DNA of 64,000 nt from NCBI GenBank assembly GCA_007694165.1, contig RECE01000245.1, positions 19,592 to 83,591 of the forward strand, in the 5' to 3' direction. Of this stretch, positions 57,680 to 61,857 are shown one piece after another. Origin of the DNA: Bacteroidota bacterium. GTDB taxonomy: Bacteria; Bacteroidota; Bacteroidia; Bacteroidales; UBA7960. The number at the start of each line of letters is the position of its first letter. Positions within the stretch are counted from its first letter, which is position 1. The notes under the pieces were generated by a model. It did no database searches and had not been told where the DNA came from. It was given only the letters and a program-made list of their open reading frames with translations. The translations under genes were made by a program, and so were the position numbers.

Positions 57680-58381
57680 TTATAAGCCGAAACGATACAT
57701 GATAGAAAAATGAACCATAATGGGTGCTGTTCTGACTCCTCGTCCGTAGCCTCCGATATAGTAAGGGTTGAGTTCGGGTTCTTTGGTTTCTGTTAATCTA
57801 ATCCTTGTTTTGAGATACCAGCCAAGAAAAACGTTGCTAAAGACCTCAGTTTTCACTCCTCCGCTAAATTCTATCCAATGCAGGGAATAGTTCCCTTTTT
57901 CCAGTTGCCCGGTATAGTCTCCCCAGTAGGGATTGGTAATATCATAAAAAGGAGCTTCATGGCTCAACGCACTGAATCCATACCGCATCCCCACAAGCAC
58001 CAGGTCATTTTGAGCAGGATGAATCCGCTTTAGCAAATTATAATCAAATCCCAATCTTCCAAAAAAGCCAGATGCGCTGTACCGGAAATCTTCCCTGTCT
58101 CCATTAACGCGCATAAAACCACCGTCTGCAACAGCAAACCAATTGAAAGCCACTTCCGAATCTAAAGAAAACTCAAATTGTTGCACTTCGGGTTCAACAA
58201 TCTGGCGGGCCAGGGCAGATACATCAAAACCCAATCGTATAAAACGATCGGGTTTAAAGCTGGGAATAGTATCCCTGGCTACCTCAGCTTCTTCCCGGTT
58301 ATTCTGCTGGTTTGACGTTTGAGCTGAAACACTAAAGCCGGATACTATGAGTATCTTCAGTATCATCAATATCTTTGTCAT
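57680..58381 (-). CDS. DUF6048-like outer-membrane/exported protein
   Basis: Signal peptide; FIRLGFDVSALARQIVEPEVQQFEFSLDSEVAFNWFAVADGG; MRYGFSALSHEAPFYDITNPYWGDY; start trimmed to 58381. Confidence 0.75.
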   Translation of the reverse strand: MTKILMILKILIVSGFSVSAQTSNQQNNREEAEVARDTIPSFKPDRFIRLGFDVSALARQIVEPEVQQFEFSLDSEVAFNWFAVADGGFMRVNGDREDFRYSASGFFGRLGFDYNLLKRIHPAQNDLVLVGMRYGFSALSHEAPFYDITNPYWGDYTGQLEKGNYSLHWIEFSGGVKTEVFSNVFLGWYLKTRIRLTETKEPELNPYYIGGYGRGVRTAPIMVHFSIMYRFGL

Positions 58382-58382
58382 C

Positions 58383-58916
58383 TTAAGGAAGCCAGGGGAA
58401 AATCTTAATATGCTCATTTAAAGAATTGGTTATATTAGCGTCATCTATTGCAACAGAGTCAATCCAATTGCGGGAATGCCGCACATGAGAAAGCTCGTAA
58501 AAAGTTGTAAAACCACACTCCATCGAAATCAGGTTGGGTAAGCGGTTATAAATAAACCACAGGGTGTCATCTGCAAAAAACAGGATGGTGTCATTCGGAT
58601 TGGTAACTCTGAAAATAAAGGCACAACTATCAAGGGTTGAGTCAAGAGGTAGTTCAACCTGGCTGACATTGTCTCGGTTGTCATATATAACAGAATCTTT
58701 TCCGAGTCCGAAAATCGAAATTTTGCTGATACTTAAAGGAGCAGGGGTGTCTTTGACAGTATCTACAGCATAAAATCCAATTCTTACAGGAACCGTTGCC
58801 ACATCTTCGCAAACAACTTCATTGAGGCATGAAGCCAGCGCCATACTAAATAGTATGCATAATGCGAAGAGCCGGTATTTATATCCTGGCTTGGTAGTAG
58901 TTACATTCAGGGGCAT
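58383..58916 (-). CDS. DUF6452-like lipoprotein
   Basis: Lipobox SMALASCLNEVVCEDVATVPVRIGFYAVDTVKDTPAPLSISKISIFGLGKDSVIYDN. Confidence 0.75.
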   Translation of the reverse strand: MPLNVTTTKPGYKYRLFALCILFSMALASCLNEVVCEDVATVPVRIGFYAVDTVKDTPAPLSISKISIFGLGKDSVIYDNRDNVSQVELPLDSTLDSCAFIFRVTNPNDTILFFADDTLWFIYNRLPNLISMECGFTTFYELSHVRHSRNWIDSVAIDDANITNSLNEHIKIFPWLP

Positions 58917-59052: not shown

Positions 59053-60372
59053 TCAATTTTCAGGGAGAATATAAGCTTTGGCACCCAGGCTGTTGAGACT
59101 GTCTATGGGGCGGCAGTCGGGCGAAAGAATCTTCTGGTTGGCATTGAAGGCAATAGAACCACACCCTCCACCGCAAATCAGTTGCAGATTGCAATCGCGG
59201 CATTCTTCAATGTGCTGTACATCCCGTTGTTGCCATATTTTAATCTTCTCGTCATCCAGGGTGATTTCAGGATAAAATGTCCCGAGTTTCTCTCCGGGTT
59301 TTCCTACAGTAGCAGTGCACGAATAAATGCTCCCGGTAAAATCCATGGCCCATTCACTTTTGCAGGCAGGACAGGCATCAAACAACGCCCCGGGAAGTTT
59401 GCCATTCTCCTGCAAAAATTTCATCACTGAAAATGCAGGCTTATGGAATTGAGTGATTTGAGGATGTGTTTTGATGAGCCGCAACAACTCCTCATAAAGA
59501 GAAATCCGGTTGAAAAGAAGGGATTGCCCGTTCTGGCAATAGTGAAGTTCGTAATTGCGGCCAATCTGGGTCTTAAACAAGGGGTGGTCCGTCCAACCCC
59601 TGGCAATGGCAAAATCTGCCAGTGCCGGAAGGTCGGTAATGTTTTCCTTATCCACCACCATACGCAGATTCACTGATAGGTTTTTATCAAGACATGCATC
59701 AATATTTTCGACGATGGCTGCAAAGGTGGGGGCATTGTTTTTCAGCCTTCTGCGTTTGTTATGTACATCAGCCGTGCCGTCAAGGGTAATCTGTATTTCA
59801 CGTACAAATTCAGGTTCGAGCAAGGGAAGATACTCTTGCAGATTAAAACCATTGGTTACGATGGCAATATCAATCTTGTGTTCTCTGGCCTGCTCTATAA
59901 ACCACGCCATATTGTTTTTGTACTCAGGCGAAATCAGAAGAGGCTCTCCTCCAAACAGCGTGATGTACTTTTTTCGATGCGCGAACTTTTCTGAAATGAA
60001 ACGGAAAAATGCATCGGTGATTTCCCTGGAGAAACGTTGCTGGATTTGAGGGTATTCGCTTTGGTAACAATAGGAGCAGGTAAAGTTGCATTTATAGGTA
60101 GGAACAAAAAAAAGCTGAACTTCTTCATCTTCCCGCTCTTCAAGAAATTCGATGTATTTGAGGCGGTAATCCAGGTCTTCCTTTTCAGGAACCACTACGT
60201 ATCCCTTTTCTATAAATTCTGATGGGTAATCGTTATTGGGTGCAGAAGTCAGTATCTGATATTCCTGATGAGAAATGATATCCGCATTCCCGGACAGAAT
60301 GTTAACGAGAATGTATTCTTTCCCTTCCACAAGCGGGGAAATAATGTTGTGACGGGAGGGTTTAAGTGTCAT
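59053..60372 (-). CDS. Radical SAM/SPASM protein (putative peptide maturase)
   Basis: VPTYKCNFTCSYCYQSEYP (CxxxCxxC); FGGEPLL; SPASM-like CPACKSEWAMDFTGSIYSCTATVG...CRDCNLQLICGGGCGSIAFNANQ; start trimmed to ATG 60372. Confidence 0.92.
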   Translation of the reverse strand: MTLKPSRHNIISPLVEGKEYILVNILSGNADIISHQEYQILTSAPNNDYPSEFIEKGYVVVPEKEDLDYRLKYIEFLEEREDEEVQLFFVPTYKCNFTCSYCYQSEYPQIQQRFSREITDAFFRFISEKFAHRKKYITLFGGEPLLISPEYKNNMAWFIEQAREHKIDIAIVTNGFNLQEYLPLLEPEFVREIQITLDGTADVHNKRRRLKNNAPTFAAIVENIDACLDKNLSVNLRMVVDKENITDLPALADFAIARGWTDHPLFKTQIGRNYELHYCQNGQSLLFNRISLYEELLRLIKTHPQITQFHKPAFSVMKFLQENGKLPGALFDACPACKSEWAMDFTGSIYSCTATVGKPGEKLGTFYPEITLDDEKIKIWQQRDVQHIEECRDCNLQLICGGGCGSIAFNANQKILSPDCRPIDSLNSLGAKAYILPEN

Positions 60373-60405: not shown

Positions 60406-60457
60406 TAAGGTCTGCTGAAAAACACTCAATTAATTGAGTGTTTTTCAGCAGGCCTTA
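60406..60457. promoter_or_regulatory. Long palindrome between the mini-ORF and the radical SAM gene
   Basis: Perfect 40-bp palindrome 60412-60451 ctgctgaaaaacactcaatt|aattgagtgtttttcagcag, extended by taagg/cctta arms after one mismatch. Confidence 0.9.
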
Positions 60458-60459
60458 GA

Positions 60460-60564
60460 TTAGTCGTGGCAACCTACTTGATTTTTAGAGATTTTCGCAC
60501 AGCATTGTGCCTGTTTTTTTTCTGATGTTTGCGTCTTTGTAGTTCTTTTTACAAGAGTTTTCAT
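60460..60564 (-). CDS. Candidate precursor peptide, 34 aa: MKTLVKRTTKTQTSEKKQAQCCAKISKNQVGCHD
   Basis: Hand-translated from reverse complement of 60460-60564; ATG to TAA; sits between the methyltransferase and radical SAM/SPASM genes on the same strand; absent from the ORF track. Confidence 0.65.
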   Translation of the reverse strand: MKTLVKRTTKTQTSEKKQAQCCAKISKNQVGCHD

Positions 60565-60639: not shown

Positions 60640-61284
60640 TTAATTATTCTTTGTTTTGAATCCTTTTATGGTAAAACTGCACACATGAATTTCACCTTTT
60701 TGATAGGGCTTTGATTCTTCTATAATTTCTACAGCGTCAAAGCCTGCTGTTTTCAGATTGTTAAAATATTCCTCCTTAGTTACAGCTCCTGCCCAGCATT
60801 GTGCAACTGCTTCGGGGTCATTTCTGAATTTGTCAGAAACCTTTTCAAGAGAAAAGATATCGCTTACTACAAAACAGCCACCGTACTTCAAAATCCTGAA
60901 AATTTCCTTCCAAACGGCCCCCTGATCCAGGCTGTGATTAAGGGTGCAGTTAGACAAGACCAGATCCAGGGTTTCGGTGTCAAGTTGTATGTTTTCCAAT
61001 TCGCTTTTGATAAAGGCTACGTTTGCCAGCTTTAGCTTTTGGGCATTCTCCCTGGCAGTATCCATCATGGCATCGGAAACATCAACGCCCCATGCAAACC
61101 CTTCAGGTCCTGCAATGGTAGCCATTTTCAATACATCAAAACCCTTTCCTGAACCCAAATCGGCGCATTGAAAACCCGGTTGTATATCAGCATAATTGAT
61201 TGCTCCTCCGCAAGATAAACAACATTCTTGTCCTGATAATTCATCGTATCTGCGTGAAATAGCCTGTGTAAATTGTTCTGACAT
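60640..61284 (-). CDS. ArsM-like SAM-dependent methyltransferase
   Basis: GQECCLSCGGAINYADIQPGFQCADLGSGKGFDVLKMA; GVDVSDAMMDTARENAQKLKLANVAFIKSELENI; LVLSNCTLNHSLDQGAVWKEIFRILKYGGCFVVSDI; start trimmed to ATG 61284. Confidence 0.85.
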   Translation of the reverse strand: MSEQFTQAISRRYDELSGQECCLSCGGAINYADIQPGFQCADLGSGKGFDVLKMATIAGPEGFAWGVDVSDAMMDTARENAQKLKLANVAFIKSELENIQLDTETLDLVLSNCTLNHSLDQGAVWKEIFRILKYGGCFVVSDIFSLEKVSDKFRNDPEAVAQCWAGAVTKEEYFNNLKTAGFDAVEIIEESKPYQKGEIHVCSFTIKGFKTKNN

Positions 61285-61362: not shown

Positions 61363-61857
61363 TCAGGTTGAATTTATAATCATTCCGGATAAGGCATACC
61401 AGATGGACGCAGCAGCCAGGGTAAACTTCAGAGTGACTCCCAGTATCAAGCCAACAAAACTACCCAGGGCAGAGCGTGCAGCTTGTCTGTTTGTTTTGCC
61501 ATTGGCTTTTTCAGCCAGCCAGGCGCCTGCAAGAGGGCCAAAAAGGACGCCCAGAGGAGGGAAGAATAAAATACCTGCGACGAGCCCAATTGCAGCCCCA
61601 AAAGCACCGTGCCTGCTTCCTTTTCCCATACGCGTTCCCCAAATGGGCAAGAGATAATCCGCCACAGTGATAAGCACGGTTAGTATACCTAATGTATATA
61701 GTATGGTGCTGGAAATACTGGCAAAACCGGTAAAATGTATAAGCAGCAAACCTGCATAACTGAATGGCGGGCCGGGTAAAATGGGGATAAAAGCCCCCAA
61801 AACCCCCAGCAGCAGACAAAGCAGACCTGCGGACAGTAATAATATATCAATAGCCAT
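61363..61857 (-). CDS. DUF456 family membrane protein
   Basis: LGVLGAFIPILPGPPFSYAGLLLIHF; GAAIGLVAGILFFPPLGVLFGPLAGAWLAE. Confidence 0.88.
   Translation of the reverse strand: MAIDILLLSAGLLCLLLGVLGAFIPILPGPPFSYAGLLLIHFTGFASISSTILYTLGILTVLITVADYLLPIWGTRMGKGSRHGAFGAAIGLVAGILFFPPLGVLFGPLAGAWLAEKANGKTNRQAARSALGSFVGLILGVTLKFTLAAASIWYALSGMIINST

Follow-up and report, generated by a model that had tools for sequence, protein, structure and literature searches.

A conserved cysteine-tailed mini-peptide beside a radical SAM/SPASM maturase and an ArsM-type methyltransferase: a probable new RiPP family in Bacteroidota

The 64,000-nt stretch of DNA analysed here (the window) comes from contig RECE01000245.1, positions 19,592 to 83,591, of a Bacteroidota bacterium (assembly GCA_007694165.1; Bacteroidales, UBA7960), and carries a compact cassette of three genes on its minus strand. 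Read along that strand, these encode an ArsM-type S-adenosylmethionine (SAM) methyltransferase of 214 aa (60640..61284), a 34-aa peptide with a short Lys-rich leader and an essentially invariant C-terminal tail, AQCCAK-x-S-x4-GCHD (60460..60564), and a radical SAM/SPASM peptide maturase of 439 aa (59053..60372). The three genes are one biosynthetic unit, and the reading of the peptide as a precursor that belongs with the neighbouring maturase is very well supported. We consider it fairly probable that the cassette represents a new family of ribosomally synthesised and post-translationally modified peptides (RiPPs) of the radical-SAM kind, probably thioether-bridged and intracellular, with the product serving as a thiol cofactor or a soft-metal(loid) ligand.

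The peptide gene had been proposed in an earlier, sequence-only reading as a mini-open reading frame (ORF) of 34 codons on the minus strand, with three Cys in its last 14 residues and His and Asp at its C-terminal end. Direct translation of 60460-60564 bears this out, giving an uninterrupted ATG...TAA frame with the product MKTLVKRTTKTQTSEKKQAQCCAKISKNQVGCHD, in which all three Cys lie within the last 14 residues and the sole His and sole Asp are the final two. The same reading had the ORF filling nearly the whole intergenic gap, which is incorrect, since it takes up 105 of the 267 nt between the methyltransferase stop at 60640 and the conserved maturase ATG at 60372, and the remainder includes a 50-nt palindrome (60407-60456). 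Codon-level conservation among relatives, which it had proposed as a check, came out in favour of a gene. A six-frame search found the peptide ORF in 11 of 12 genomes of the genus at 68-100% identity, with zero stops and zero frameshifts; of 100 related genomes, 34 have a homologue. The 11 sequences from the genus give a pN/pS of 0.19 overall and 0.058 for the last 16 codons; third codon positions hold 867 of the 1388 pairwise differences, and synonymous changes predominate. The +1 and +2 frames give ratios of 1.5-1.6, while one antisense frame gives 0.37, which is attributed to codon symmetry. The peptide ORF is a real coding gene, a point on which we see virtually no room for doubt. Its length is too short for usual gene calling, and searches of NCBIfam and Pfam with the peptide gave no match except a weak one (0.019) of one member to an SSH-motif RiPP model.

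Across 88 distinct peptides and 80 loci, complete peptide sequences are 30-39 residues long and divide into a short, Lys-rich leader of varying length and a tail of a single fixed length, the last 17 residues reading x-A-Q-C-C-A-K-x-S-x-x-x-x-G-C-H-D. Within this tail A, CCAK, G, C, H and D do not vary, and the spacing CC-x9-C is found in 88 of 88, so that the CC/C/H(D) arrangement singled out beforehand is indeed the key feature of the peptide. Because the search pattern demanded CCAK, the last Cys and the closing Asp, it is the constant spacing and the residues left free (A, Q, G and H) that are informative.

Peptide and maturase are inherited together. All 61 relatives compared have either both genes (26) or neither (35; Fisher p = 8e-18), and in a 398-genome sample of the phylum strong matches to the peptide and to the maturase fall in the same six genomes. 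A scan of a collection with one genome per species, mostly metagenome-assembled genomes (MAGs), returned 387 candidate stretches encoding maturase relatives. Locus statistics were taken from the best 80 of these, with ORFs called by simple scripts, and thus hold for the closer part of the family. In 80 of 80 loci the peptide gene precedes that of the maturase in the same orientation, with a median gap of 66 bp and a gap of at most 300 bp in 75. The methyltransferase is upstream on the same strand in all 76 loci with enough DNA, and its sequence identity rises and falls with that of the maturase (Spearman 0.80, 71 loci). Most loci are from Bacteroidota MAGs, two being labelled Spirochaetales; within Bacteroidota the cassette recurs in lakes, sediments and soda lakes.

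The maturase start was placed at the ATG at 60372, where homologues begin, rather than at the longer TTG start of the ORF listing. The protein matches Pfam PF04055 (5.5e-20) and has the CX3CX2C motif at Cys95/99/102 together with SPASM cysteines at residues 334/337/352/391/394/400/404/420; Cys95/99/102 and most SPASM Cys are invariant across 26 homologues. With a co-inherited, adjacent short precursor and a maturase combining CX3CX2C with a Cys-rich SPASM region, the cassette has the gene layout and the maturase motifs of a radical-SAM RiPP system. The AlphaFold2 model of the maturase (mean predicted local distance difference test score, pLDDT, 79.6) places CteB chains first in a Foldseek search (E 4e-16, TM score 0.62, almost full length), followed by SuiB, anSME and ChlB. 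Residues 1-60 are predicted as three strands followed by helices, an N-terminal beta-beta-beta-helix arrangement as in RiPP recognition element (RRE) domains (PMC8326336), and are a candidate RRE. CteB makes a Cys-Thr thioether in a SCIFF peptide (PMC8326336). The suggestion in the sequence-only reading that the cysteines might be a cyclisation site is plausible, because the next gene encodes a radical SAM/SPASM enzyme of the peptide-modifying kind, with thioether-forming CteB as its closest match among solved structures; that reading had not named this partner. We are highly confident that the peptide is the substrate of this adjacent enzyme, and lean towards a thioether or other Cys cross-link on it.

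The methyltransferase is without the C-terminal domain of canonical ArsM. Among proteins of solved structure it is nearest in sequence to arsenite methyltransferases, and ArsM or AS3MT entries occupy the first 13 places by structural similarity, As(III)-bound forms included. All 74 methyltransferases compared have Cys25, Cys113 and Cys163, which align to ArsM Cys72, 174 and 224, each of which is required for As(III) methylation (PMC6950371). A CC pair (21, 22) is conserved at 96-97%, and 35 of the 74 have at least two Cys within the last 16 residues. Against the NF008823 (arsM) model the protein scores 170 bits, below the curated cut-off of 263.

Thiol-redox genes recur around the cassette. 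A 422-aa thioredoxin-thioredoxin reductase (Trx-TrxR) fusion is near the maturase in 50 of the 51 loci outside the window's clade with enough downstream DNA (for example L095 9402-10667, with a CPPC site, after the cassette), the split by clade having been made by matching records to same-family genomes. A DUF302 protein often follows the fusion, and DUF1847, a membrane thioredoxin, a small Cys-containing membrane protein, and rhodanese, SQR-like and NapH-like genes also recur. Across the 80 loci, no recurrent gene family for export, transport, proteolysis or immunity was recognised.

These observations establish coding, constraint, joint inheritance, gene order and enzyme families; from them we infer modification, bond type, methyl acceptor and function, in the following proposed scheme. 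The RRE-like domain of the maturase would probably bind the short Lys-rich leader, and the enzyme would alter the cysteine tail CCAK-x-S-x4-GCHD, most likely by forming thioether (S-C) cross-links in the manner of CteB-type ranthipeptide maturases. The ArsM-type methyltransferase would be a tailoring or partner enzyme, its methyl acceptor being either thiols or a soft element that the peptide binds through thiols. Judging by the linked thiol-redox genes and by the As(III)-type Cys of the methyltransferase, the peptide cysteines may hold or transfer something soft or redox-active. The product would probably remain in the cell, with thioredoxin-type reductases keeping it reduced, and would serve there as a conserved thiol/redox cofactor or a ligand for soft metal(loid)s rather than as a diversifying antimicrobial. 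For the intracellular cofactor or ligand role taken by itself, we regard the chances as even.

The closest known systems are the SCIFF/CteA-CteB ranthipeptides (TIGR03974; PDB 5WGG, 5WHY), which likewise pair a small Cys-bearing precursor with an adjacent radical SAM-SPASM maturase (with an RRE there, a candidate RRE here), are conserved within a lineage and include the nearest solved structure to our maturase. They differ in being clostridial and in having six Cys in about 45 residues, whereas here three Cys lie in the last 14 of 34; the window maturase scores 77.7 bits against a TIGR03974 cut-off of 425, and the window's cassette adds an ArsM-type methyltransferase. Among NCBIfam models, the top matches are the CefB (Cys-every-fifth), TIGR04463, Clo7bot and PapB maturases, all well under their curated cut-offs; the best, CefB of the CefA/CefB RiPPs (NF038107), gives 157 bits against a cut-off of 600, and the window precursor has no Cys-every-fifth pattern. 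The window methyltransferase has the fold of ArsM/AS3MT (PDB 4FS8, 4FSD, 6CX6) and the three Cys that bind As(III) in their catalysis, but is shorter and tied to a radical SAM RiPP cassette rather than to acr3, and canonical ArsM paralogues are separate in many cassette genomes. Mycofactocin and PQQ offer a comparison of the way of working only, as conserved, single-copy, radical-SAM-modified peptides with linked oxidoreductases; their chemistry is on Tyr/Val or Glu/Tyr (PMC8326336), while the window peptide would be Cys-based and its redox role is suggested by gene context.

Several observations weigh against this proposal. The peptide product is predicted from the genes, and the RRE-like assignment comes from secondary structure and a whole-protein structural match. 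Ser at position -9 is replaced by Ala in 3 of the 88 peptides, which leaves the tail with no proven invariant thioether partner residue. None of the 16 loci from the window's own clade has the Trx-TrxR fusion; a full-length copy lies elsewhere in 10 of 12 genus genomes (a partial copy in one), and in the three genus genomes inspected it adjoins housekeeping genes. For these reasons it may be a general reductase, and its link to the cassette, strong across most families, is not exclusive. Finally, one same-family genome (G022; locus L160, G022:C131:3000-11000) keeps the methyltransferase and the DUF456 gene and has lost both peptide and maturase, so the methyltransferase may have a role beyond the peptide; in this copy one Cys of the N-terminal CC pair is lost (NCRLSCGG).

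The ArsM-like neighbour had prompted the idea of an arsenic function, and its three intact As(III)-site Cys and its place in the cassette speak for it. Yet a second ArsM-like protein of more canonical type, 34-40% identical to the cassette methyltransferase, adjoins acr3 on another contig in many relatives; acr3 is absent from the cassette locus, leaving the methyltransferase without the ars-operon linkage that marks ArsM, and no recurrent gene cluster around the 80 loci was recognised as an arsenic-resistance family. Nor does acr3 co-vary with the cassette: 17 of the 26 genomes with the cassette have it, as do 16 of the 35 without (p = 0.19). Because of this outcome an arsenic-resistance cassette was downgraded, and the context lends no support to a role specific to arsenic. 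The same evidence bears on two readings that put a soft element on the peptide. An unmodified mini-metallothionein or chaperone that supplies the methyltransferase with a soft metal(loid), As(III) for instance, while the radical SAM enzyme acts elsewhere, would account for the three invariant Cys with His/Asp and for the constant adjacency of the three-Cys methyltransferase. We think it unlikely, given that the peptide matches a peptide-type maturase in 61 of 61 genomes, that the methyltransferase persists without the peptide in G022, and that acr3 is unassociated while canonical ArsM adjoins it elsewhere. Alternatively, the methyltransferase might methylate arsenic (or selenium or antimony) while the modified peptide binds it through its cysteines, as the conserved Cys25/113/163 and the As(III)-bound ArsM structures among its nearest matches would allow; with no ars genes recognised near the cassette, no co-variation of acr3 and a score short of the ArsM cut-off, this too is improbable. 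An extended form, in which the radical SAM enzyme would shape a three-Cys pocket and the ArsM-type enzyme would install or methylate arsenic, selenium or another soft element, is similarly doubtful; if true, it would give Bacteroidota an organometalloid cofactor that is genetically encoded.

Secretion as an antimicrobial or signalling RiPP, such as a bacteriocin or a SCIFF-like signal, would fit a gene order in which a small precursor neighbours its radical SAM maturase, and a title cited in PMC8326336 reports peptides derived from SCIFF in the quorum sensing of clostridia. Against an antimicrobial role, no transporter or protease family was recognised as recurrent at the 80 loci, and the tail is invariant across families, where bacteriocins diversify; since no immunity family was recognised there either, we judge secretion very unlikely. 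The short ORF could also be a translated regulatory leader of the maturase, conserved through ribosome sensing, a reading to which its upstream position and the palindrome that follows it in the window lend some appeal. Conservation is at the amino-acid rather than the codon level, and Rfam gave no riboswitch or other RNA match in the window region or at eight loci. The near-perfect palindrome itself (GGCCTGCTGAAAAACACTCAAT...) belongs to a dispersed repeat with about 25 sites in the genome, some paired about 200 bp apart like the ends of miniature inverted-repeat transposable elements (MITEs). Sister species are without it at this site, and it is a recent insertion here. It could attenuate transcription of the maturase, a putative effect; as a conserved attenuator it was rejected, because it is a dispersed repeat without a counterpart in the sister species, and the regulatory-leader reading seems to us barely tenable.

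The three-gene cassette recurs in Bacteroidota and is covered by no curated model or searched paper. Literature searches combining ArsM, RiPP and radical SAM, on arsenic RiPPs, and with pieces of the peptide sequence found no description, and the Bacteroidales RiPP survey PMC10352776 gave no match as far as its text is reached by a keyword search. Since the tail is almost fully constrained, no recurrent exporter was recognised, and thiol-redox genes and an ArsM-like enzyme are linked, the cassette hints at a new thiol or metalloid cofactor.

Around the core, a DUF456 membrane protein (61363..61857, minus strand) is encoded directly upstream in the same orientation and belongs to the operon run at 10 loci; it is possibly a clade-specific companion. 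DUF1847 occurs in 15 operons and DUF302 in 24 (for example L092 at 1319 bp and L095 at 2689 bp past the maturase start), and both may act in the same pathway as the cassette. Adjacent DUF6048 and DUF6452 genes (57680-58417 and 58383-58916) follow the maturase on the same strand, with homologues downstream in related loci, and are probably ordinary Bacteroidota neighbours.

Among more remote matches, one on a Rhodococcus plasmid (28% identity) has no ArsM-like gene annotated alongside. Two distant maturase relatives, L158 and L159, were excluded from the family as they carry a different peptide. There, a different short, acidic, Cys-containing ORF comes after each radical SAM/SPASM maturase (L158 2932-3090 and L159 3039-3224, reverse-complement coordinates), the first ending ...EWCEFCDPIFCAPVKPTE and the second starting similarly; these ORFs are probably another uncharacterised precursor family.
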